Position numbers and translations under genes: made by a program
Assembly (NCBI GenBank): GCA_030426845.1
Contig: JAUHXR010000024.1
Location: forward strand, 1 to 49,386
Origin: Polyangia bacterium
GTDB taxonomy: Bacteria > Myxococcota_A > Polyangia > Polyangiales > Sandaracinaceae
DNA length: 49,386 nucleotides
Reading direction: 5' to 3'
Notes under the pieces: model-generated
What the model saw: the letters and a program-made list of their open reading frames with translations, nothing else
What the model was told of the DNA's origin: nothing
The model's database searches: none
Part shown: positions 14,630-49,386 of the stretch, in pieces
How positions within the stretch are numbered: the first letter of the stretch is position 1
How the letters are laid out: each line of letters begins with the position of its first letter

Positions 14630-14664
14630 CCCTCCGCCGAGCCGCTCGCTCGCTCGAGTCGTTC

Positions 14665-14725
14665 GCCGCTCGAGCCGCTCGCCGCTCGAGCCGCTCGCCG
14701 CTCGAGCCGCTCGCCGCTCGAGCCG
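14665..14725. repeat. 16-bp tandem repeat array A (3.8 copies)
   Basis: The unit GCCGCTCGAGCCGCTC is repeated perfectly three times, with a 13-base fourth copy. Degenerate half-units lie on both sides, out to about 14641 and 14740. Each unit holds a CTCGAG palindrome. It fills the gap between the convergent PilZ and SprT-like genes. Confidence 0.9.
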
Positions 14726-14740
14726 TCAGCGTCGAGCCGC

Positions 14741-15460
14741 TCAGCTCTTGAGCAGCGCGGAGAGGTTCTCGTTCTCCCAGCGCACCGCGCGGCGGTAGTC
14801 CGGGTGGGCGCGCTCGCGCCGGCGGAACTCGGGGGTGTGGTACTCGAGCCGACCGCCGACCTCGCGCGGCGGCACGACGTGATGGAGCAGCTCGTGGAAC
14901 ACCACGAACTCCACGAAGAAGCGGGGCACGAACGCCTGGTCGAGCGACGGGTGGATGCGCACGAGCTGCTGGTCATGGGTGTAGGTGCCGAGGCGGATGC
15001 TGCGCCGCCGCTTGCCCTGCGGCGGCTTGCGACCCCAGGTGATGCGGACCCCGTCGACCGCCCCCTCGAAGTAGCGGGCGCCGACCTCGGCCGCGATCGC
15101 GTCGAGGTCGTGGTGGCGGCCGCGCGTGCGGAGGAGCACCCGCGCGCCGCGCCGCTTGATGCGGTGGCGGTTCGCCTCGATGTAGCGCCCGACCGCCGCG
15201 CTGGCCCGGCGGTCGCCGTCGGCGAGGTAGCTCAGCAGCTCCTCGATCACCCCGCTGGGAGCGTCGAGGAACATGTGGTGCAGTCGGATCTCGAGGCGCG
15301 GTCCGCGGTGGCGCGTGGCGATCATCGTGCGCCGGTTGTCGGTGACGATCAGGTCCGCAGGGACGCCGAGCGCGCGACGGATGCGCGCCTCGAGGCTCGC
15401 GCGGCCGAGCGGGCGCGCCGGGCGACGGGGCGGGCTGTCGAAGCGGAGGGCGAGCTGCAC
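14741..15460 (-). CDS. SprT-like / M48-like zinc metallopeptidase domain protein
   Basis: Putative zinc-dependent peptidase of 239 residues. The HExxH motif is clear in VVFHELLHHVV, and a downstream Glu in YHTPEFRRRERAHPDY could be the third ligand. A basic central region (HRIKRRGARVLLRTRGRHHD) and an N-terminal domain with LIVTDNRRTMIATRHRG come first. This layout resembles SprT/Wss1-type or YgjP-type proteins, many of which process DNA-bound or ribosome-related substrates; which one is open. The GTG at 15460 with GAGG upstream was preferred over a longer frame beginning at 15550, whose extra residues look non-coding. The gene is bracketed by two different 16-bp tandem arrays, one touching its stop side and one about 90 bp upstream of its start. 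Confidence 0.7.
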   Translation of the reverse strand: MQLALRFDSPPRRPARPLGRASLEARIRRALGVPADLIVTDNRRTMIATRHRGPRLEIRLHHMFLDAPSGVIEELLSYLADGDRRASAAVGRYIEANRHRIKRRGARVLLRTRGRHHDLDAIAAEVGARYFEGAVDGVRITWGRKPPQGKRRRSIRLGTYTHDQQLVRIHPSLDQAFVPRFFVEFVVFHELLHHVVPPREVGGRLEYHTPEFRRRERAHPDYRRAVRWENENLSALLKS

Positions 15461-15551
15461 GGCTCCCCTCAGATGACATCCCCGATCGATCGCGTCCAGC
15501 GCGGGGCGCCGCCGGTCGGCGGCCCACGCGGCTACGCCGGAGAGCCCCACG

Positions 15552-15663
15552 CGCGCCTCGGGCTCGGCGCGCCTCGGGCTCAGCGCGCCTCGGGCTCAGC
15601 GCGCCTCGGGCTCGGCGCGCCTCGGGCTCGGCGCGCCTCGGGCTCGGCGCGCCTCGGGCTCAG
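15552..15663. repeat. 16-bp tandem repeat array B (7 copies)
   Basis: Seven uninterrupted copies of CGCGCCTCGGGCTCRG, where R is G or A. The last copy runs into the stop codon of the PpiD-like gene (TCA on the plus strand at 15660-15662). The array therefore forms the start of that gene's 3' untranslated region and lies in the upstream region of the SprT-like gene. There are no spacers, so it is not a CRISPR array. The rest of the 15461-15660 gap shows nothing recognisable. Confidence 0.92.
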
Positions 15664-28124: not shown

Positions 28125-29975
28125 CTACCGCGAGCGGACCTGGATCGACGGATTCTCCGCCTCGAGGTTGGCGAAGACCGACACCGTCTGGCCCGGACCG
28201 AGCTCGATCCGGCGGCGGACAGGTGCGGCGAGATACTCGTTGCGCAGCTCGATGGTGTGGCTGCCCGCGCGCACGCTCAGGCTTCGGATCGGGGTGTTCC
28301 CGACCGGTCGTCCGTCCAGATGAACCTCCGCCCACGGGGCCGCGGTGACCACCAGGGTCGCCCGGGCGGCGGGCGCCTCCGGCCCCGTCTCCGGCTCCGG
28401 AGTCCCCGAATCCATTGAGGATCCCGCGTCCGGCGGGGCTGTCGGCGGACCGGCATCCGGGGTGACGGGGGCGCCGGCGTCCTCGATCGGGGGTGGTGTC
28501 TGGGTCGGGGTCGTCCCGCCGCGGTCGGGGGACTCGCCGGGGCCGGTGAGCGCCGCGTAGCCGCCCGCCGCCACGACGACCAGGCTCGCGAGCCCGAACC
28601 AGAGCCCCCTCCGGCTGGGGCGCTCGTCCGCCCGGCCGCGCCGGCCGGCGATCGCGCGGGTGCTCGGCCCGTCCTCTTCTCCTTCCAGCTCGTCGGGGAC
28701 CTCCCCGGGCGCCGAGGACTTCGTGGGCTCGCCGAGCTCCAGCCGGTCGTCTGCCTCCTCGGGCTCTGCCTCCTCGGGCTCTGCCTCCTCGGGCTCTGCC
28801 TCCTCGGGCTCTGCCTCCTCGGGCTCTGCCTCCTCGGGCTCTGCCCCCTCGGGCTCTGCCTCCTCGGGCTCGTCGCGGGCCGGCTCGTCGGGCTCGACCG
28901 GGGTGAGGCTGCGCCGCCCCTCGATGGGGCGGGTGCCCACCGGCTCGTCGTCGTCCGCCGGTGCGGCCGGCATCGGGGGCGGCAGCTCGCTCTCGCTCAT
29001 GAGCTGCTCGAAGTCGCGGTTCGCGGCCAGGGTCCGCACCTGCCCGCCGGACTCCGGCGGCCCGTCCTCCGTCGAGTCGTCCCCGCGCGCCTCGCGCATC
29101 CGCTGGACCTGGCTCTCGGCGAGAATCGCGCAGGCCCCCAGCTCCGGCGCGACGCCCTCGGGCGAGTGGGTGGCGAGGAACCCGCGCAGCGCCCGCCCCA
29201 GCTCGCGCGCGGTCTCGAAGCGCTGGCCGGGGTCGCGCTCGAGGGCGCGGAGCACGATCGCGCGGAGCGCCGGCGGGACCTCGCTCGCGTCGCCGAAGCG
29301 CGGCCCGGGCGCCTCGAGCGCGGCCCGGCTCTGCTCCACCGTGGTGGCGGGGAACGCCTGGCGACCGGCGAGCGCCTCGAACAGCGCCGCGCCGAGCGAG
29401 AAGATGTCGCTCGACGGGCTCGCCTCCCCCTCGAGCTGCTCGGGCGAGAGGTAGCCAGGGGTGCCGAAGAGCTCCTTGCTCTCGTCGTCGGCGGGCGCGG
29501 CGATGCCGAAGTCGAGGAGCCGCGAGTGGCCCTCGTGATCGACGATCACGTTCCGCGGGGTCACGTCGCGGTGCACCACCCCGAACCGCTCGTGCGCGTA
29601 GTGGAGCGCGTCGCAGATCTCCGCGCCGAGGTGCGCGACCAGCTCGGGGGCGAGCGCGCCCTGCTGGAGGATCTGCGCGAGCGTCGCGCCCTCCACGTAC
29701 TCCATCGCGAGGAAGTAGACGCCGTCGACCACCCCGAGCTCGAACACCGGCACGATGTGCGGGTGGCTCATCTGCACGAGGGTCTTCGCCTCCTGCACGA
29801 ACATCGACACGAAGCGCGGATCGCTCGCGAGCTCCGGCAGGACCTGCTTCACGACGAGCCGCTTCTCGAAGCCGCCGAGGCCCCGCAGCCGCCCGAGGTG
29901 GACGCGCGACATGCCGCCGCGCGCGATCTCCTCGTCGAGCAGGTACTTGCCGAAGGTGCGGACGGATGGGGTCAC
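28125..29975 (-). CDS. Membrane-anchored Ser/Thr protein kinase with PEGA tail
   Basis: Hanks-type kinase of 616 residues. The kinase domain covers about 8-280: a Gly-rich loop (EEIARGGMSRVHLG), Lys43, Glu62, HRD at 135-137, Asn142, DFG at 155-157 and GTPGYLSPEQ. All residues needed for ATP and metal binding are present. In the catalytic loop the usual Lys after HRDxK is replaced by Thr (HRDVTPRN). An acidic low-complexity linker (about 368-408) carries eight tandem EPEEA-type repeats. One membrane segment follows at about 456-476, then a short Pro/Asp-Ala-Gly linker and a C-terminal PEGA domain (about 545-610; VVTAAPWAEVHLDGRPVGN, IELRNEYL) outside the membrane. The start is GTG. It is divergent from the Kelch-like lipoprotein gene, 69 bp away. 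Confidence 0.9.
   Translation of the reverse strand: MTPSVRTFGKYLLDEEIARGGMSRVHLGRLRGLGGFEKRLVVKQVLPELASDPRFVSMFVQEAKTLVQMSHPHIVPVFELGVVDGVYFLAMEYVEGATLAQILQQGALAPELVAHLGAEICDALHYAHERFGVVHRDVTPRNVIVDHEGHSRLLDFGIAAPADDESKELFGTPGYLSPEQLEGEASPSSDIFSLGAALFEALAGRQAFPATTVEQSRAALEAPGPRFGDASEVPPALRAIVLRALERDPGQRFETARELGRALRGFLATHSPEGVAPELGACAILAESQVQRMREARGDDSTEDGPPESGGQVRTLAANRDFEQLMSESELPPPMPAAPADDDEPVGTRPIEGRRSLTPVEPDEPARDEPEEAEPEGAEPEEAEPEEAEPEEAEPEEAEPEEAEPEEADDRLELGEPTKSSAPGEVPDELEGEEDGPSTRAIAGRRGRADERPSRRGLWFGLASLVVVAAGGYAALTGPGESPDRGGTTPTQTPPPIEDAGAPVTPDAGPPTAPPDAGSSMDSGTPEPETGPEAPAARATLVVTAAPWAEVHLDGRPVGNTPIRSLSVRAGSHTIELRNEYLAAPVRRRIELGPGQTVSVFANLEAENPSIQVRSR
28751..28870. repeat. 15-bp in-frame tandem repeat in the kinase linker (8 copies)
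   Basis: Eight consecutive copies of CTGCCTCCTCGGGCT on the plus strand, one with a single T-to-C change, encode the EPEEA-type acidic repeat of the kinase juxtamembrane linker. The near-identity of the copies points to recent expansion. Confidence 0.92.
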
Positions 29976-37942: not shown

Positions 37943-40006
37943 ATGCGGGAGCCGGAACGCGCGCGGATCGCTCCCCGCGGCCGCCAGCGGTCGCGGCCCT
38001 ACGCGACGACGAGCGGCGCCCTCCTCGCCGCGGCCGCCGCGCCGTTCAGCGTCGTCGAGCGCGCGACGGGATCGCTGCTCGACGCGCCGCGCTGGCTCCA
38101 GGGCGCGGCCGGGCTCGACGCGCTCGTCCTGCTCGTCGCGGCCGTCGTCCTCGTGCGCCGCCCGCGCGCCGGGCGCCTCCTCGCGACCCTCGGGATCCTG
38201 GGCGCGCTGGGCCTGGCCGCGCCGCACCTGATCGTCTCGCCGCTCTCCGCGCTCGCCGCCCTCGTCCTCAGCACGGTCGCGCTGGCGCTGCTGCATCGGG
38301 TCGCGGCGCCCCTGCTGCAGCCGAGCCCCGCCCGGCGTCGCCCGGTCCGCGAGGGACAGGCGCAGGGCGCCGCGCTCGCCGCGCTGGTGGGCTGGACCCT
38401 GGTGGCGCTCGCGCCGGTCGAGCGCTCGGTGCTGGACACGCTGACCGTGGGGTGGGCGCTCGCCTGCGCGACCGTGCTCGGGGTGGACTGGGCCATCGCG
38501 AGCCTCCGCGCCGTGCGGGTCCGCGCCGCCCTCGTCCTCGGCGCCGGGATCGGCTCGGTCGCGCTCGTGCCGCTGCTGTGGGGCGACGGCTGGTGGGTCA
38601 CGAGCGCGCTCGTCCTCGCCGCCTCCGCCACCGCGGGCCTGGTTCGACCGCGGCCTCGCCGCTCGGCCCTGACCACGTTCTGGGATCCGCTCCTCGGTCA
38701 CCCGGAGCGCCTCTTCGTCGGCACCTTCGCCGCGCTCTGCCTCGGCGGGACGCTGCTCCTCGCGCTGCCTCAGAGCGCGAGCGGCGGCGCGACGATCGGG
38801 TTCGTCGACGCGGCCTTCACCTCGACGAGCGCGGTCTGCGTGACCGGGCTCGCGGTGCTCGACACACCGGTCGACTTCACCGCCTTCGGCCAGGTCGTGA
38901 TCCTGGTCCTGATCCAGATCGGCGGCCTCGGGATCATGACGTTCTCAACGATCGCGTTCTGGGCGCTCGGCGGCCGGATGAGCCTGCGGCACGAGGGCGC
39001 GGTCGCGAGCCTCATCAGCTCGCGCCACCGGGGGCACCTGTTCCTCAGCGCCAAGCGGATCGTCCAGCTCACCCTCGCGATCGAGGGCGCCGGCGCCGCG
39101 GTCCTCGCGGCCCTCTTCATGGCGCGGGGCGACTCGGTCGGGGTGGCGCTCTGGCGCGGCATGTTCACGTCGATCTCGGCCTTCTGCAACGCCGGCTTCG
39201 CCCTCCAGAGCGACAGCCTCGTTTCGTACCAGGGCTCCCCCTTCGTGCTGCACACGGTGGGCGCGCTCATCATCCTCGGCGGCCTCTCGCCGCTCGCGAT
39301 GCTCGCGATCCCGGCCGTCCTGCGGCGCTCGGCCGGCCCGGTGTCGGCCCAGGCGCGGCTCAGCCTGAGCGCCTCGCTCGTCTTGCTCGTCGTCGGGTTT
39401 GCGTTCCTGCTCGCGTTCGAGTGGGACGACTCCCTCGGCGGCCTGAGCGTGGTCGACAAGGTGCACAACGCGTGGTTCCAGTCGGTCACGCTGCGGACGG
39501 CGGGCTTCAACTCCGTCGACCTGACGCGGATGCGCTCGGCCACCCTCGTGCTCACGCTCGCGTGGATGTTCATCGGCGGCAGCCCGGGCGGCACGGCGGG
39601 CGGGGTCAAGACGACCACCGCGGCGGTGCTCGCGCTCTCGGTCGTCCAGGCGATCCGCGGCCAGTGGACGCTCGAGGCGTTCGGTCGCCGCATCCCGGAG
39701 CGCACGCGGGCCAAGGCCGCGGTCGTCACGATGATCGCGCTGGGCACCGGCGCGCTGGCGCTCGTCGCGGTGCTGCTCACGCAGGACATGTCGGAGCGGC
39801 TCGCGGTCTTCGAGGTCGTCTCGGCGCTCGGCACGGTGGGGCTCACGATCGGGGGCACCGCGGCGCTCGACGGAATCGGCAAGGCCATCGTGATCGCCTG
39901 CATGTTCGTGGGTCGGGTGGGCGGCCTCACCCTCTTGATGTTCCTGAGCAGCCGCCGCGCGCCGCCCGCGCTGCGCCGTCCAGAGGAGGAGATCGATGTC
40001 GGGTAG
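37943..40006 (+). CDS. ktrB: TrkH/KtrB-family potassium channel subunit with extra N-terminal membrane domain
   Basis: Ion-translocating subunit of a K+ uptake system. The four pore motifs are present in order: TSTSAVCVTGLA (about residue 293-304), SISAFCNAGFAL (about 410), LRTAGFNSVD (about 516) and ALGTVGLTIGG (about 629). Each has the filter Gly. The intramembrane Gly/Ser-rich loop appears as FIGGSPGGTAGGVKTTT. Ktr-type proteins are usually about 450 residues; this one has 687. The additional first 240 residues hold about seven hydrophobic segments of unrecognised type. It is followed by a KtrA-type gene 9 bp downstream. Whether uptake is K+ only or K+/Na+ coupled cannot be told. Confidence 0.88.
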   Translation: MREPERARIAPRGRQRSRPYATTSGALLAAAAAPFSVVERATGSLLDAPRWLQGAAGLDALVLLVAAVVLVRRPRAGRLLATLGILGALGLAAPHLIVSPLSALAALVLSTVALALLHRVAAPLLQPSPARRRPVREGQAQGAALAALVGWTLVALAPVERSVLDTLTVGWALACATVLGVDWAIASLRAVRVRAALVLGAGIGSVALVPLLWGDGWWVTSALVLAASATAGLVRPRPRRSALTTFWDPLLGHPERLFVGTFAALCLGGTLLLALPQSASGGATIGFVDAAFTSTSAVCVTGLAVLDTPVDFTAFGQVVILVLIQIGGLGIMTFSTIAFWALGGRMSLRHEGAVASLISSRHRGHLFLSAKRIVQLTLAIEGAGAAVLAALFMARGDSVGVALWRGMFTSISAFCNAGFALQSDSLVSYQGSPFVLHTVGALIILGGLSPLAMLAIPAVLRRSAGPVSAQARLSLSASLVLLVVGFAFLLAFEWDDSLGGLSVVDKVHNAWFQSVTLRTAGFNSVDLTRMRSATLVLTLAWMFIGGSPGGTAGGVKTTTAAVLALSVVQAIRGQWTLEAFGRRIPERTRAKAAVVTMIALGTGALALVAVLLTQDMSERLAVFEVVSALGTVGLTIGGTAALDGIGKAIVIACMFVGRVGGLTLLMFLSSRRAPPALRRPEEEIDVG

Positions 40007-40015
40007 GAGGATCGT

Positions 40016-40675
<660 letters not shown>

Positions 40676-43469: not shown

Positions 43470-44476
43470 TGCGTCCTCCGCTGGGTGCGGACGCCGTAGC
43501 GGAACAGCGACGTCCATCGGAGCGGGTCCGGCGCGACCGGGAGCTGCTGGAGGTGCTCGGTCATGCAGCGCGCGGCCCCGGGCGTGAAGTCGTTCTGGAC
43601 GATCGAGACGTTGCCGATCCCGCTCGGGCCCACCGTGAACTGCGCGATGAGGTCGCCGGTCTGCTGGAGCAGCGCGGGCTCGCGCTCCGCCGCGCGCGCG
43701 AGGCAGTGCCGGAGCTGATCGAAGCGGCCGTCGAGCTGCGCGCGCAGCGCCTCGATGTCGGGCGGGTGGCCCCCGGGGACGGGCGGCGCGCCTTGGTAGG
43801 GCAGCGCGGTGAGGCCGCCGGCCGGCGCGCCGACGCCGTAGCCGCCGCCGCCGCCTGCCATCGGGTCGTGGGGCCCGGGGTGGATCGGGCCCGCCGAGGC
43901 GGCGCCCGCGGAGTAGCGGGCGTCCGGATCCAGGCGCCAGACGAAGCTCCAGTGCTGCTCACCCCGCGCCGTCTCGAGCCGCAGCTCGGTGGTCTGCGCG
44001 TCGAGCAGATCGGCGCCCTCGAAGCACACGTCGGTCGCTTGGTGCTGCACGCCGACCCGCGGCACCCGGTAGCCGGTGCTCCAGCCGGGGCGGCCGTTGC
44101 GCTGCACGGTCCAGCGGCCGACGAACGCGCGGCTCGTCTCCTCCACCACCACCTCGGCGCTGTCCCGGACGGATGCCAGCCGGAAGCGGTAGTCCCCGAG
44201 CGCCGCGCGTCCCGGGTCGAGCGGGTGCGCCCAGTGCGACACCTGCACGCACACGCGCCCGGGCTCCGCGGTCCGCAGCGCGGCCCGGTCGACCAGCGAT
44301 CCCGACGCGAAGCCGTAGGCCTGCTCCGCCTCCGGGTCGGGGCGCGCGATCTGCGTCGCGGCCTCGACGAGCGGGGTCGCGCTCGGGTGCGGCACGGTGA
44401 CGGTCGCCCGCACCCGCGCGTAGGGCTGGCAGCCCGCGAGCGACAGCCACAGGAGGGCGGTGACGAGGCGCGACAC
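43466..44476 (-). CDS. Lipoprotein with AgmX/PglI-like C-terminal domain
   Basis: The 336-residue lipoprotein has its signal ending LSLAGC at Cys16. A middle beta domain (about 60-190) is followed by a Gly/Pro-rich linker containing GGGGGYGVGAPAGG. The C-terminal domain runs from about 245: LRHCLARAAEREPALLQQ, AQFTVGPSGIGNVSIVQNDF and AARCMTEHLQQLPV. This resembles the AgmX/PglI TonB-like domain with its conserved Cys pair. It is the first gene of the operon with the protease and PSI lipoprotein. The GTG at 44476 lies six bases after TATCGG on the minus strand, so a leaderless message is likely. The job of the operon is not known. Confidence 0.75.
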   Translation of the reverse strand: MSRLVTALLWLSLAGCQPYARVRATVTVPHPSATPLVEAATQIARPDPEAEQAYGFASGSLVDRAALRTAEPGRVCVQVSHWAHPLDPGRAALGDYRFRLASVRDSAEVVVEETSRAFVGRWTVQRNGRPGWSTGYRVPRVGVQHQATDVCFEGADLLDAQTTELRLETARGEQHWSFVWRLDPDARYSAGAASAGPIHPGPHDPMAGGGGGYGVGAPAGGLTALPYQGAPPVPGGHPPDIEALRAQLDGRFDQLRHCLARAAEREPALLQQTGDLIAQFTVGPSGIGNVSIVQNDFTPGAARCMTEHLQQLPVAPDPLRWTSLFRYGVRTQRRTQ

Positions 44477-44482
44477 GCGTCC

Positions 44483-44488
44483 CCGATA
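44483..44488 (-). promoter_or_regulatory. Candidate -10 element (TATCGG) for the protease operon
   Basis: On the minus strand TATCGG lies six bases before the GTG at 44476, which puts transcription start close to the start codon. The rest of the 219-bp divergent gap up to 44695 contains only GC-rich sequence and a GACGGAGG ribosome binding site for the plus-strand gene. Confidence 0.35.
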
Positions 44489-44695
44489 GTCGGTCGGCCT
44501 GCGTCGAGCAAGCCGCCCGGCCCCTGGGCCCCCCCCCGCGGGCGGCGGCCCGGCGAGGCGCGCGATTCTTCACTGAGGGGAAGCTCACGCCCCAGGGTCA
44601 GATGGGCGCCTGGCCTCGCGAAGCCCCTGATGACCCCACCGACATCGCCCGCGCATCCCGCGCGAGCCCGCGTGGGGTCGAGACGGAGGTTCATC

Positions 44696-46006
44696 ATGAC
44701 CACCCACACCACGGCCGCCGCCCGCTGGCGGCGCACCCTCGCGAGGCTCGGTGTCGCCGCGCTCGCGATGGGCGGCACCCTCGGGACGGCGGCGACGTCC
44801 CACGCCTACCTCGTCGATCCGGGCGGGGGCGGCAGCGGGCCCAGCGTCCTCTGCAGCTACGCGCAGCGCGCGGAGTGCAGCGGCATGGGCGGCACCGCGC
44901 ACATGGAGGACGGGGAGTGCCACTGCCTCGTCTTCGAGTGGGTACCTCGCCGCGTGATCAACGCGTCGGACGGCGACGTCGGGCTCGTACCGATCGACGG
45001 CCGGGGGAGCCCCACGGTGACCACGCTGACCCGCGAGATCGGCCAGTTCCACCGGCACACCGTGATGTTCCACGACTCTGGGCGACAGACCCGACACGAC
45101 ACGATGTTCGTCGACGACGCGGAGGACGGAACGATCGACGGCGAGGACTACGTCGGCCGCGTCCTGCTGGGCGCCGCGGGCCTCAACGGCAACGACCTTA
45201 ACAACGGCGCGCCCGGCGCGATCACGCAGACGATCGACCAGACCTACGCCATCGAGCGCCTCGCGAGCACCGGGCTGATCCTCAAGCCGGCGCTCGTGCT
45301 GTCGTGGGACTACGGCTTCGCGACGCTGGTCGAGGCCGATCGGGAGGCGTTCGTCGACGCGGTGACCGACGCCCTCGCCACCGACGCCTACTACAAGCTC
45401 AGCGACTACACGATGCAAGATTCCATGTCGCTTCCGTTCGACACCGATCGGCGCTCGGGGGACCTCCGCGGCTCGCACTGCGCGGGCTACATCGCGGAGT
45501 TCTACCGAGATCAGGGGTTCTCCCTCCCGGACGTCGCCTACCCGGCCGCGCTCCGCGACGATGTCGCCGGCATCCTCTACACCCAGGTCCGCGCGGAGTG
45601 CCGCGCGGGGCTGACGGGGTGGGGGCAGCTCGGCTTCCTCTTCCGCGCGTGCGGCACGGTGGCCAACCAGGTCGTCAACTGCTTCGCCGATCTCGGCTGC
45701 GGGAACCGGAGCAACGACTGGGAGGACGGGGTCGGGACGGGGTCGGCGACCTCGCCCGACAACCTGCTCCCCGACGTGTTCCGCTACAGCGGCTCGACCA
45801 CCTACGACTGGGACGGCACCGAGCTGTCGGACCCGGGCTCGGCGGGGCCCTACGTCCCGCTGACCGGCGGGACCCTGACGACCCACCCCGGGACGACAGA
45901 CCCCGACACCGGGTCGACCGCCGGCAACAGCGCGTCGCCGTTCCAGCGCGTCGAGGCCCAGCGCCTCGCCGGCGGCTACTACACCTACACGGACATGGTG
46001 CTTTGA
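44696..46006 (+). CDS. Secreted protein, possibly a permuted NlpC/P60-papain-like hydrolase
   Basis: The 436-residue exported protein has a long signal peptide with an Arg pair (ARWRRTLARLGVAALAMG) and a likely cut at SHA-Y near residue 37. A Cys-rich stretch (about 53-77) comes next. Two short motifs resemble the order seen in YiiX/YaeF-type permuted papain folds. A His motif, IGQFHRHTVMFHDSG (His121), comes first, and a Cys motif, GSHCAGYIAEFYRDQG (Cys262), comes later. If so, His121 and Cys262 would be catalytic. The similarity is weak and by eye only. The C-terminal part is low-complexity (TTHPGTTDPDTGSTAGNS). The next gene starts 2 bp after the stop, so the two are an operon. Confidence 0.6.
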   Translation: MTTHTTAAARWRRTLARLGVAALAMGGTLGTAATSHAYLVDPGGGGSGPSVLCSYAQRAECSGMGGTAHMEDGECHCLVFEWVPRRVINASDGDVGLVPIDGRGSPTVTTLTREIGQFHRHTVMFHDSGRQTRHDTMFVDDAEDGTIDGEDYVGRVLLGAAGLNGNDLNNGAPGAITQTIDQTYAIERLASTGLILKPALVLSWDYGFATLVEADREAFVDAVTDALATDAYYKLSDYTMQDSMSLPFDTDRRSGDLRGSHCAGYIAEFYRDQGFSLPDVAYPAALRDDVAGILYTQVRAECRAGLTGWGQLGFLFRACGTVANQVVNCFADLGCGNRSNDWEDGVGTGSATSPDNLLPDVFRYSGSTTYDWDGTELSDPGSAGPYVPLTGGTLTTHPGTTDPDTGSTAGNSASPFQRVEAQRLAGGYYTYTDMVL

Positions 46007-46007
46007 C

Positions 46008-47243
46008 ATGAACGAGCACGACCCGCGGCGCACCCTGGCGGGGGCGCTCGTCGCCCTCGTCGCGATCCTCTCCCTCGTCTCCTACCTCGGCCACGAGCCG
46101 GCGGAGGAGCCGGTGAGCGTGGAGTCGACGCGCCCCCCTCGACGCCCGGCGCGCGGCCACCACGCCAGCGCGTCGGCCCCCGTGGACGACTGGAACGACG
46201 CAGGCGTGCCGCGCCTCGCGAGCGCGTCGGTCATCCAGGTCGAGGAGGCCGATCTCATCGAGCGGGTCGTGCTCGAGCCGAGCAGCGCGTGCGTGGGCGA
46301 TCAGGTCCGCGTGCGCGCCCTCCTCCGCCCGGGCGCGCGGTCCGCGAAGGTGTTCGTGGACGGCGCGCCGGGGGCGGTGCAGGTCGTCGACGCGAGCGAG
46401 GTCGGCGAGCAGCCGATCCGCGTCCTCGCCCGGAGCTGGGGCGACACCTACGAGGTCGCCCACGCGAGCCTCGAGGTCCGCGACTGCCCCGACCTCGGCC
46501 GGCTGCGCGCCCGCGCGAGCGCCCGCGCGGTGGCCGAGCACGACTACGTCTTCACGCTGTCGCCGCGGCCCGCCGGCGAGGTCCGGTGGGACTTCGGGGA
46601 CGGCGAAGAGGCGCGCGGCGTGAGCGCCCGGCATCGCTACCGCGCGCGCGCCGACCGGCCGCAGTCCACCTACCTCGTCTCCGCGTCCTACGACGGACCG
46701 GTCGGGGTCGAGGAGACCTTCGTCGCGGTCACGGTGGTCGAGCACGCGGGCATCGCCGCGCGGACGCCGTTCCCGGTGCTCGAGGCGGAGGGCGAGCGCT
46801 TCGCGACGTGGTCCGAGGGCGACGGCGCGCGCACCACCCAGCGCCTCACCAACGATCTTCGTGAGCCCGTCCGGCTCGAGGTGGCCGAGGTCCGAGCCTT
46901 CCCGTGCGACGGGTCGGCGCCGTCGGTCACTCAGCTGCCCGCGGCCGAGGTGAGCGACGTCACCGAGGTGCCCCCCGGAGCCAGCGTCGAGGCGGGCCTC
47001 CACGTGCCCGCGAGCGTCGCCGAGGGGTCGGTCTGCCAGGTGCTCGTGAGGCTGGGCGGGCACGCGGGCGAGCGCCTCGTCACCAGCGTCGTCGGGCTCG
47101 ACACCGGCGTCCCGGAAGACCGCGAGCGGGTCGAGGATCGCGAGCTCGTGGCGCTGCTCTCGCGCGTCGTCGCGGAGCGCGGGGCCGGGCCCGTCACCGC
47201 CGAGGACCTCGCCGCCTACCGCGCGAGCCAGCCGGCGCCCTGA
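46008..47243 (+). CDS. Membrane-anchored PKD-like domain protein
   Basis: The 411-residue protein has one N-terminal anchor (LAGALVALVAILSLVSYLG, about 10-28). A basic linker and a set of beta-sandwich domains follow. VRWDFGDGEEARGVSARHRY (about 190-209) is a clear PKD-type motif. The next strands, YLVSASYDGPVGVEETFVAV, complete it. The last third has VRLEVAEVRAFPCDG and a helical C-terminus (LVALLSRVVAERGAG). It follows the putative hydrolase by 2 bp and probably works with it outside the membrane, for example as a binding partner; this is inference. A 41-bp gap separates it from the convergent sulfatase-fold gene. Confidence 0.65.
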   Translation: MNEHDPRRTLAGALVALVAILSLVSYLGHEPAEEPVSVESTRPPRRPARGHHASASAPVDDWNDAGVPRLASASVIQVEEADLIERVVLEPSSACVGDQVRVRALLRPGARSAKVFVDGAPGAVQVVDASEVGEQPIRVLARSWGDTYEVAHASLEVRDCPDLGRLRARASARAVAEHDYVFTLSPRPAGEVRWDFGDGEEARGVSARHRYRARADRPQSTYLVSASYDGPVGVEETFVAVTVVEHAGIAARTPFPVLEAEGERFATWSEGDGARTTQRLTNDLREPVRLEVAEVRAFPCDGSAPSVTQLPAAEVSDVTEVPPGASVEAGLHVPASVAEGSVCQVLVRLGGHAGERLVTSVVGLDTGVPEDRERVEDRELVALLSRVVAERGAGPVTAEDLAAYRASQPAP

Positions 47244-47284: not shown

Positions 47285-49378
47285 TCAGAGCCCTTCGCAC
47301 TGGGCGCCGCTGAGCAGGCCCTGGCGGCAGCACACCGCGGCGTCGATGTAGCCGATCTGGCAGAGCTGGCGCCGCGACTCCTCATCCATCTCGACCTGGG
47401 TGCCCTCGACCGCGCCCTCGTCGGCGCGAGCGCGCGCCTCCTCCAGGACGCCCATCAGCGCCTGGACGGACTCGCGCTGGGCCTCGGCCCGGTTGTCCTG
47501 CTCACCGACGTCGTCGGCGACGCGGTAGAGCTCGACCGGCTCGAGGCCGCGCGGGTTGTTGGGGTTGGCGACGATGAGCTTGAGCTCCTCGAAGTCGCGC
47601 AGCTCGCGCACGCTCTCGAGGATGTTCCCCTCGTGGCTCTCCTCGGCGTAGACGCGCGTCGTGCCCTCCTCGAGGCTGCCGCCCTGGACGCCCTCGGGCG
47701 CCTCGAGGCCGATCACGTCGAGCACGCTCGGCATCAGGTCGATGCTCTGCACCCAGTGGCTCACGTGGGTGCCGGCGCGCGCGTTGGCGGGGAGCTTCAC
47801 GAAGAGCGGCACGTGGACCTGCTCGTCGTAGAGCGTGGTGCCGTGCCAGAAGCCGCCGTGCTCGCCGAACTCCTCGCCGTGGTCGGCGGTCACGATGATC
47901 ATCGTGTCGTCGTAGACGCCGCGCTCGCGCAGCGCGTCCATCAGGCGACCGAAGTGCTCGTCCCAGTAGGTGATCTCGCCGTCGTAGAGCTCGCGGAGCT
48001 CGCTCGCCTCCGACAGGTCCGGGTGCTGGTGCGCGGCGCGCGAGTAGCCGGTGCCGTCGTAGGGGTGCGGGAAGTACGGGTCGTGCGGGTCCATGTACCC
48101 GGCGAAGAGGAACCACGGCGAGCCCTCGGGCGCGGCGGTGTCGAGCCAGGTCACGATCTCGCGGTTGACCGTCTCGGCGTCCTGGTAGGCGCTCCCCGGC
48201 TCGACCTGGCCGTTCGCAGCGCGGTAGCGCTCGATGCCGCGGCGCAGGGCCTGGACGAGCAGGAGCTTGGCCGCGTTGTCGTCGGCGCCGAGCACGAACT
48301 CGGGCTCGAGGAAACGGTACGTCTCGAAGCCCTGGTTGAAGTTGAAGTAGGGCCCGACGTTGAAATTGGTGACCACGCCGTTGGTGGCGTAGCCGTGCTC
48401 CTGAAGCACCTCGGGGAGGGTCACGACCTCGTCGGGGAGCGCGTCGGGCTTTCCCATCACGCCGTGGCTCGAGGCGTAGCGGCCGGTGAGGATCGACGCG
48501 AAGCTCGGGCGGGTCCAGCTCGCGTTGCTGAACGCCTGGTCGTAGCGCACCGCGTCCTCGGCGAAGCGGTCGAGGTTCGGCGTCGAGCCCTCGCGGTAGC
48601 CGTAGGCGGGCAGGTGATCGGCGCGCAGGGTGTCGACCACGATGACGATCACGTTGGGCGCGCCCTCGGGCGCGGCCGGACGGCTCGGCGCGCCGTTCGC
48701 GTTGGCGTGCGGGCCGACGAAGGTGGTGACGAGCGCGACCGCGACGACCACGAGGCCGACGAACGCGGGCGAGCCCCACGCCTTGAGCATGAAGCGCCCA
48801 GCGCGCCCGCTCGTCCAGAGGCGGATCCCGAACGACAAGATGAGGTAGATGAGCGCGGCCGCGCCGGCGCAGGCGAGGAAGACGAGCGCGCCCTCCTTGG
48901 ACTTCCAGACGAGCTCCTCGTGGAAGACGTCGCGCCGCACGCGGAACGCGCCGAGCGCGAGGCCCATGAACGCGACCAGGAACGCGGTGAGCCGCGCGTA
49001 GGCCTGCGGCTCCGGCACCGCCTCGCGCTTCATCCACCGGCCGATCACGGTCGAGGCGAGCATGAAGCCGCCGCCGCCGAACGCGCAGAAGATGCCGTAG
49101 GCGACCGCGCCGTAGGCGAGCACGCCGTAGCCCACGCGCCCGCCGCCGTCGGCCGCGATCACGCCGCCCTCGGCGAGGCCGACGATCATCCCGGCGAGCA
49201 GGCCGGCGCCGAGGCCGAGGGTCACGCCTTTGCCGACGCGAGGCCAGTCCGCCTCGGGCACGTCCGGGAGGTCGGCGTAGATCTTGTCCTCGCGCTCGGA
49301 GTCCTCGACCACGAGCTGCGCGTCGTAGCCCTGGCGTCGCAGGAGGAAGAACGGGACGCCGATGGCGGACACGCACAT
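47285..49378 (-). CDS. Sulfatase-fold membrane enzyme (alkaline phosphatase superfamily); start may lie outside the window
   Basis: A 697-residue protein counted from the ATG at 49378. The frame stays open to the window edge, so the real start may be further upstream. The first 225 residues hold about five or six membrane segments, then a large periplasmic sulfatase-like domain. VVDTLRADHLPAYGY (Asp249) is metal site one, NASWTRPSFASILTG is the nucleophile region, and DPHDPYFPHP and VTADHGEEFGEHGGFWHG give the remaining metal ligands. Thr289 stands where sulfatases have the Cys or Ser that becomes formylglycine, and the following Arg of CxPxR is Phe. Membrane domain plus Thr nucleophile recalls LtaS/EptA-type phosphotransferases, although annotation pipelines would call it a sulfatase. 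A Cys-rich tail ends the protein. Confidence 0.8.
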   Translation of the reverse strand: MCVSAIGVPFFLLRRQGYDAQLVVEDSEREDKIYADLPDVPEADWPRVGKGVTLGLGAGLLAGMIVGLAEGGVIAADGGGRVGYGVLAYGAVAYGIFCAFGGGGFMLASTVIGRWMKREAVPEPQAYARLTAFLVAFMGLALGAFRVRRDVFHEELVWKSKEGALVFLACAGAAALIYLILSFGIRLWTSGRAGRFMLKAWGSPAFVGLVVVAVALVTTFVGPHANANGAPSRPAAPEGAPNVIVIVVDTLRADHLPAYGYREGSTPNLDRFAEDAVRYDQAFSNASWTRPSFASILTGRYASSHGVMGKPDALPDEVVTLPEVLQEHGYATNGVVTNFNVGPYFNFNQGFETYRFLEPEFVLGADDNAAKLLLVQALRRGIERYRAANGQVEPGSAYQDAETVNREIVTWLDTAAPEGSPWFLFAGYMDPHDPYFPHPYDGTGYSRAAHQHPDLSEASELRELYDGEITYWDEHFGRLMDALRERGVYDDTMIIVTADHGEEFGEHGGFWHGTTLYDEQVHVPLFVKLPANARAGTHVSHWVQSIDLMPSVLDVIGLEAPEGVQGGSLEEGTTRVYAEESHEGNILESVRELRDFEELKLIVANPNNPRGLEPVELYRVADDVGEQDNRAEAQRESVQALMGVLEEARARADEGAVEGTQVEMDEESRRQLCQIGYIDAAVCCRQGLLSGAQCEGL

Positions 49379-49386
49379 CTCGGCGA

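Follow-up and report, generated by a model that had tools for sequence, protein, structure and literature searches.

In the alkaline phosphatase (AP) superfamily a threonine serves as nucleophile in the ENPP enzymes, according to the cited section of PMC11677397, and in EptA, MCR-1, LtaS and YejM according to the cited section of PMC7576196. For LtaS and EptA the latter section also describes transmembrane (TM) domains that are needed for transfer, although the soluble domains hydrolyse. Here we compare with these systems a sulfatase-like gene at one end of a 49,386-nucleotide stretch from a Polyangia bacterium of the Sandaracinaceae (assembly GCA_030426845.1, contig JAUHXR010000024.1; the window, meaning this whole stretch of DNA), the product of which has Thr at the position that is modified to formylglycine (FGly) in sulfatases and is fused to a domain of the lipid translocase type. 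The replacement of Cys by Thr is ordinary and the joined architecture is the main new point.

A gene in two contigs and the spread of the fusion

The minus-strand open reading frame (ORF) 47285-49378 encodes 697 residues (P0001) from the first in-frame ATG at 49378. The frame is open from the stop at 47285 up to the window end at 49386 with no upstream stop, its third-position GC is 0.98 and the reading frame is real. The window is an entire contig (C8) and the gene is truncated by the contig end at 49386, the C-terminal ~700 residues being encoded at 47285..49386 (minus strand, as are all features of the protein given below) and the 5' part on contig C460. This second part was recovered with an N-terminal query from the closest homologue, which matched the start of C460 in the window's own genome at 57% identity and in the correct orientation. 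The window ends in the same 127 bases (49260..49386) with which C460 begins (C460:1-127), an exact suffix-prefix overlap that joins the gene halves. Only two full-length copies of this stretch are found in the assembly, at the window end and the C460 start, beside a partial third match of 44 bases at 82%. Counted from its first start codon, the C460 part encodes 391 residues, the final 39 of which are the first 39 of P0001, giving by arithmetic a full-length protein of ~1049 residues (352 + 697). It consists in order of an LPG_synthase_TM translocase domain (hereafter LPG domain), five TM helices and the sulfatase-like domain, with PF03706 (LPG_synthase_TM) matching the C460 part at E 2.8e-26 (93.2 bits against a gathering cut-off of 33.4, profile positions 3-289 of 302). 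LPG domains as such are common, with 7 PF03706 matches in this genome; the second match to the N-terminal query (C28:12-788, 33% identity) likewise lies at a contig start. The exact 127-base overlap looks like an assembly-graph break at k = 127, and breaks of this kind may divide further genes that reach the end of a contig here.

A match at E <= 1e-30, a threshold that lets in paralogues, was present in 34 of the 56 genomes searched as relatives, the own genome included, and 80 family loci were kept from 160 confirmed in the genome collection (L043 was excluded from the family alignment as a distant match). These loci belonged mostly to Myxococcota or 'Deltaproteobacteria' bins, the best to a Sandaracinaceae bin, while other labels included Chloroflexi, Fermentibacteria, Eisenbacteria, Hydrogenedentota, Spirochaeta and Thermodesulfobacteriota. 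Most homologues had frames of ~1000 residues with at least 300 residues ahead of the part seen in the window, and PF03706 was found in the N-terminal part of three of the four homologues scanned whole (P0002-P0004, E 9.4e-21 to 8.7e-25), the fourth being a short form. The LPG domain was in the same ORF in 63 of the 80 loci, three were cut by contig ends and 14 had none in the ORF, including L103 where an LPG frame overlaps in another frame. In this locus, which comes from a Chloroflexi bin, the family profile is matched by four ORFs in tandem (L103:8306-16621), the first of them overlapped by the LPG frame.

Across a sample of 282 genomes of the phylum the C-terminal profile gave a match at E <= 1e-100 in 103, a single match in 99 of these (four candidates scored per genome), and the whole-protein profile (979 positions) did so in 104. 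In 52 of the 104 (hand count) a single match ran from position 9 or earlier to position 949 or later, in two more (the own genome and G231) both halves were present on two contigs, and the matches of G047 and G276 began inside the LPG part. The single-contig genome G001 holds the fusion in one frame of 1034 amino acids that matches positions 6-977 of 979. The translocase/sulfatase-like fusion is a recurrent one, found in many related bacteria. An artefact of assembly or frame, which would leave the window gene as a stand-alone membrane sulfatase-like protein, could be suspected from the location of the halves on different contigs in the own genome and from the short forms found elsewhere, but it is scarcely credible given the exact and unique 127-base overlap and the one-ORF fusion in the 63 loci and in G001.

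No paper on an LPG_synthase_TM and sulfatase-like architecture was found in the open-access literature, outside of which most subscription journals lie, so that a description elsewhere is possible. The catalytic chemistry is of an already known kind, and the fusion is new so far as these open-access searches show.

Predicted active-site residues and the threonine at the formylglycine position

The sulfatase-like (AP superfamily) domain spans residues 241-557 (47708..48658; PF00884, E 1.5e-51, or 5.0e-52 in the genome search) with a score of 176 bits against a gathering cut-off of 25. SGSH_C (PF16347, E 9.1e-11) covers residues 505-571 (47666..47866) and overlaps the end of the sulfatase domain, and Phosphodiest is a weaker Pfam match on the same protein. 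An AP fold is supported by fold-search Z scores of 33.5-40.9 over 324-388 residues: among the best 50 matches the nearest solved structures were S1 sulfatases and phosphonate monoester hydrolases (Z 33.5-40.9, root-mean-square deviation 2.4-3.9, 342-388 residues), together with YejM at Z 33.6 (deviation 3.0, 324 residues aligned). These lists were filled by the catalytic domain, and the lack of MprF and LtaS in them is no evidence against either.

The motif TRPSFASILTG occupies residues 289-299 (48482..48514) and begins with T289 (48512..48514), the predicted nucleophile and metal ligand. An earlier note on this DNA, made from its letters alone, had placed the motif at 48503-48530, an interval that holds the Thr codon and the start of the motif (it translates as FSNASWTRPS) and leaves ASILTG outside. 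Its reading of Thr for Cys and Phe for Arg was borne out, as phmmer alignment with solved FGly enzymes such as 4upk pairs T289 with the modified Cys and F293 with the Arg of CxPSR. The FGly (S1) motif C-x-P/A-x-R with Cys or Ser at the nucleophile position is therefore absent, T289 and F293 standing in its place. Of the 88 distinct family ORFs in the alignment one has a gap at position 289 and the other 87 all have Thr (the rows are not independent), which argues that Thr at this position is not due to chance.

S287 and W288 are as invariant as T289 within the SWTRPS family, and paralogues with NWTKPS have Asn at 287 and keep Thr at 289, which favours Thr289 over Ser287. Ser287 was accordingly considered as nucleophile and judged the less likely candidate from these alignments. 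In the P0001 model (mean predicted local distance difference test score, pLDDT, 90.2) T289 opens the helix that follows the strand 277-283. Alignment and model together indicate that Thr289 is the likely nucleophile, in agreement with the earlier note, the possibility of another Cys or Ser having been checked by alignment and by the position of T289 on the modelled helix only.

The other predicted site residues are D249 in VVVDTLRAD (48632..48634), a putative metal ligand followed by T250 in place of the second Asp of the FGly rows; H432 in YMDPHDPY (48083..48085), a putative catalytic His aligned with the His of SHGP in EptA; D499-H500 in ADHGEEF (47879..47884), putative metal ligands aligned with SDHGE of EptA where FGly rows have D-N; and H512 in WHG (47843..47845), aligned with the His of YLHG in EptA. 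All of these, together with R252, S287, W288, T289, H305 and H507, are invariant among the 64 aligned members. The D-D and D-N metal ligands of FGly (S1) enzymes were not found in the protein, which has D249-T250 and D499-H500 instead. Alignment by hhalign with E. coli EptA covered residues 423-561 (26% identity, probability 82.5) and matched H432, D499-H500 and H512. This set of residues, together with the YejM correspondences given next, suggests a one-metal site with a Thr nucleophile and two further His, and the site is probably of the phosphate type, EptA-like, so that the protein would be a phospho-enzyme despite its sulfatase family name.

The hhalign comparison with YejM covered residues 238-610 (E 4.4e-13) and placed D249 on D268 and T289 on T302. 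This profile match, the likeness in fold and the annotation of YejM in E. coli K-12 as a lipopolysaccharide signal transducer could point to a protein that is mainly a regulator or sensor like LapC/YejM, with the fold used for lipid binding. Such a role is improbable, as all the predicted ligands are invariant in the family whereas YejM has G450-R451 at the place of D499-H500, and Mg-dependent phosphatase activity is reported even for YejM in the cited section of PMC7576196.

Thr in place of the FGly Cys is by no means peculiar to this gene. The own genome has eight PF00884 places, with Thr at the nucleophile column in seven, Ser in one, and no Cys or FGly-type motif. When 30 loci (from 36 listed places) of three relatives were added, the resulting 38 rows comprised 11 with the FGly-type motif (C-x-P/A-x-R), 23 with Thr, three with Ser and one with Cys but without the Arg. 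Five of the FGly rows (L125, L127, L134, L136 and L142) were shifted in the profile alignment and were classed by eye from C-x-P/A-x-R, and the nucleophile column is less surely read in the distant rows L004, L008, L150, L152 and L153. The FGly-type rows had D-D at the first metal site in 11 of 11 and D-N at the second in all ten that were readable, while among the non-FGly rows D-D occurred in none of 27 and D-H in 25, the other two being gapped there. In this survey, then, Thr was the state most often seen at the FGly position (23 of 38 rows, the non-FGly type as a whole making up 27), and the substitution alone is ordinary. The three Ser paralogues, L003 (G000:C464), L135 and L143, have TRSIRS or SRSLRS.

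A true sulfatase that uses Thr in place of FGly would accord with overall sequence and fold, which are closest to sulfatases among the matches listed. It is nevertheless very improbable, since the metal set is D-T and D-H rather than D-D and D-N, the Arg at +4 is lost and the tree separates most of the non-FGly rows from the FGly ones. The earlier note had also held that the protein cannot be matured by the formylglycine-generating enzyme (FGE). This stands in so far as both the Cys and the +4 Arg are absent and the site is not an FGly site, and it has little weight given that the FGly-type motif occurs in none of the eight own-genome places and that the non-FGly type predominates in the survey. 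Sixteen PF03781 (FGE-fold) matches are present in the own genome; with an assembly completeness of 95% an FGly sulfatase may have been missed, and the relatives G001 and G012 have some.

The tree comprised 55 rows: 16 of the 64 rows of the family alignment (every fourth), 37 of the 38 survey loci (L007 was dropped as too short), EptA and YejM. The 11 FGly rows were set apart with support of 90/92, the 20 SWTRPS rows formed one group (98/100), ten NWTKPS paralogues formed another (100/100) and these two groups adjoined each other (90/91). L008, a row with Thr at the column and a very long branch (5.03), fell beside the FGly rows at 90/84, which counts against a clean split. In this tree, a phylogeny of the kind proposed in the earlier note, the SWTRPS rows stand apart from the FGly rows, and EptA and YejM are long branches without a placement settled by support. 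Inside the NWTKPS group is L149, which has Cys at the nucleophile column (TWCMPAV) and no FGly Arg.

Proposed chemistry and gene neighbourhood

Sequence and models give the domain order, the conservation, the residue correspondences and the fusion with its distribution; metal binding, a covalent intermediate, a lipid substrate, the orientation, a coupling of the modules and transfer over hydrolysis are inferred. Our proposal, tentative and a little short of an even chance, is an inner-membrane enzyme that couples phospholipid presentation to Thr-dependent phosphodiester cleavage with transfer of the head group (or hydrolysis). The N-terminal LPG domain, of the MprF/YbhN lipid translocase type, would bring or accept a phospholipid across the membrane, with the five-helix membrane domain next in order and the catalytic domain on the outer face. 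One metal would be held by D249, D499, H500 and T289, and T289 would attack the phosphodiester of the presented lipid giving a phospho-Thr intermediate. The head group would then pass to an envelope acceptor, a glycan or another lipid, or to water, aided by H432 and H512. A narrower form of this proposal, in which an MprF-type scramblase fused to an AP-superfamily phosphotransferase constitutes a self-contained 'translocate-and-transfer' enzyme carrying the donor phospho-head group to an envelope acceptor, is possible but doubtful.

The five predicted TM helices lie at residues 48-221 (48716..49237; model helices 48-77, 85-115, 123-151, 161-190 and 202-221). An acidic residue in the first helix, E70 (49169..49171), and the pair R149-D150 in FRVRRDVFHE at the end of the third (48929..48934) are invariant in both the 64-row and 33-row alignments. 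The model of a full-length homologue from locus L015 (mean pLDDT 86.6) likewise has five long helices before the catalytic domain, and its N-terminal region has two interrupted helices (99-113/120-134 and 262-275/287-297) that by eye, without superposition, resemble TM3a-3b and TM7a-7b of RtMprF in the cited section of PMC8131360. A PDB sequence search with the TM part (E up to 10) returned a HIG1 domain protein (1.4e-4), a teichoic acid flippase construct (1.1) and TRF1 (2.3), all three of which were regarded as composition artefacts.

To find neighbours of the family gene, 946 genes, the targets among them, were called in the 80 loci by third-position GC and length and were clustered, with one representative scanned for each of 20 clusters. 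Genes for an FG-GAP protein (17 loci) and Ppx/GppA (10 loci) are found near the window's clade. In a second clade feoB (14 of 80 loci), gpsA (14 of 80) and feoA (10 of 80) lie upstream of the fused gene, not all three everywhere (L092, L096, L099, L102, L104-L107, L111, L116, L117, L120, L122 and L123). A third clade features glycosyltransferases, a Wzx-like gene, a UDP-sugar dehydrogenase and a PF01663 cluster (17 loci, 22 genes). The last of these, a phosphodiesterase cluster of which one representative was scanned, is near the family gene in 17 of the 80 loci, often overlapping it by a few bases. The loci with this cluster include short forms (L084-L091, L098, L101, L109 and L110) and fused forms (L089, L095, L100, L112 and L115), and several of them also hold the glycosyltransferase, Wzx-like and UDP-sugar dehydrogenase clusters.

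A membrane-anchored hydrolase would employ the same Thr chemistry with water as the acceptor. It would strip lipids, or glycans linked to lipids, of phosphate or phosphodiester groups, and in the forms that have a translocase domain this domain would recycle or present the substrate or product. This is a possibility that we regard as real though not probable. Among the matches listed, the nearest solved relatives that act on phospho-substrates are the phosphonate monoester hydrolases 4upk, 2vqr and 4uph, and the PF01663 neighbour would also fit such an activity; that neighbour belongs mostly to another clade, however, and was not seen in the window's own. The layout of five TM helices and a Thr-type domain resembles that of EptA, LtaS and YejM, the first two of which are transferases (PMC7576196, cited section).

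Several observations weigh against the coupling of presentation to head-group transfer. Hydrolase activity is nearly as likely as transfer. Among the matches listed, the solved proteins most closely related to the catalytic domain are sulfatases and phosphonate monoester hydrolases and not LtaS or EptA, and the hhalign alignment with EptA leaves D249 and T289 outside its range. On the membrane side, the third loop is positively charged, which conflicts with the positive-inside rule, simply read, for a catalytic domain that faces outward, the TIGR00374 'flippase-like' model scored 37.6 on the N-terminal domain, below its cut-off of 43.2, and a PDB sequence search with the LPG part returned no relative. 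In the 13 loci other than L103 that lack an LPG domain in the ORF, several of them short, no ORF matched the family LPG profile. In most of the other genomes among the 104 the match to the whole-protein profile starts after the LPG part, in frames of ~650-800 residues, and short forms and fusion are equally common, which lowered our confidence slightly. Some short forms sit in polysaccharide loci beside a PF01663-cluster gene, and in the window's clade no conserved neighbour among the scanned clusters names a substrate.

The scan also took in 14 of the other genes called in the window, four of which had no family while the rest were mostly housekeeping. Two adjacent plus-strand genes at 43553-46006 and 46008-47243 (817 and 411 amino acids) are convergent with the sulfatase-like gene, the larger having no Pfam family and the smaller a sub-threshold PKD match. 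TrkH and TrkA-like potassium uptake genes lie side by side at 37943-40675, and GC-rich tandem repeats with units of 15-16 bases, ~7-8 copies and 87-98% matches occur at 14634-14742, 15551-15661 and 28750-28871.

The family search thus names a sulfatase where the active site indicates a probable phospho-enzyme, and the same applies to 27 of the 38 PF00884 rows surveyed. The translocase fusion hints at a lipid donor and ties together two families whose partners are often unknown. Were the coupling true, it would be a new way of supplying donors for envelope modification, and a translocate-and-transfer enzyme would represent a system for envelope modification that is conserved in many Myxococcota and in some other phyla.

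Relation to known systems

The protein may work like the EptA, MCR and LtaS enzymes while standing outside their family models. The likeness to LtaS and the phosphoethanolamine transferases put forward in the earlier note holds for the five predicted TM helices and the ligands that match EptA, and does not extend to the nearest solved enzymes listed, which are FGly sulfatases and phosphonate monoester hydrolases. EptA has five TM helices. The window protein shares with EptA and MCR the D-H and His ligands (SDHGE...HG) over residues 423-561, and differs from them in having D249 where the first ligand is Glu, in the added N-terminal LPG domain and in being nearer to sulfatases in overall sequence. 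The TM helices ahead of an AP-superfamily domain and the Thr nucleophile are also held in common with EptA and MCR (PMC7576196, cited section). The best score against the NCBIfam EptA/MCR models was 42.6 bits, far below the cut-off of 561.

Likewise, the NCBIfam LtaS model gave E 9.9e-7 and 27.7 bits against a cut-off of 970. To our knowledge LtaS has no LPG domain, and it further differs by its Glu ligand. The two proteins share a TM domain joined to an AP domain of the Thr type, which in LtaS acts on lipid head groups according to the cited section of PMC7576196; this section also gives LapC/YejM (PbgA) five TM helices and a periplasmic AP-fold domain. The correspondences of T302 with T289 and D268 with D249 add to the likeness with YejM, which differs in having neither equivalents of D499-H500 nor an LPG domain.

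The phosphonate monoester hydrolases and S1 sulfatases (such as 4upk, 2vqr and 6hr5) are the nearest by both sequence and fold among the matches listed; those that were aligned have, unlike the window protein, Cys(FGly) as the nucleophile residue together with the +4 Arg. We know of no translocase domain in the solved enzymes of this kind. The NWTKPS-type PF00884 paralogues of the same genomes have Thr at the same place and the D-T...D-H ligands and form the neighbouring group in the tree, and are distinguished by Asn at 287.

The C-terminal aminoacyl-phosphatidylglycerol synthase domain of MprF was not among the Pfam matches of the protein, the C-terminal domain of which is PF00884. In MprF a flippase domain is fused to a domain acting on lipid head groups, and in this respect the architectures are alike; the catalytic domain of MprF is an aminoacyl-lipid synthase with GNAT folds (PMC8131360, cited section), whereas that of the window protein belongs to the AP superfamily.

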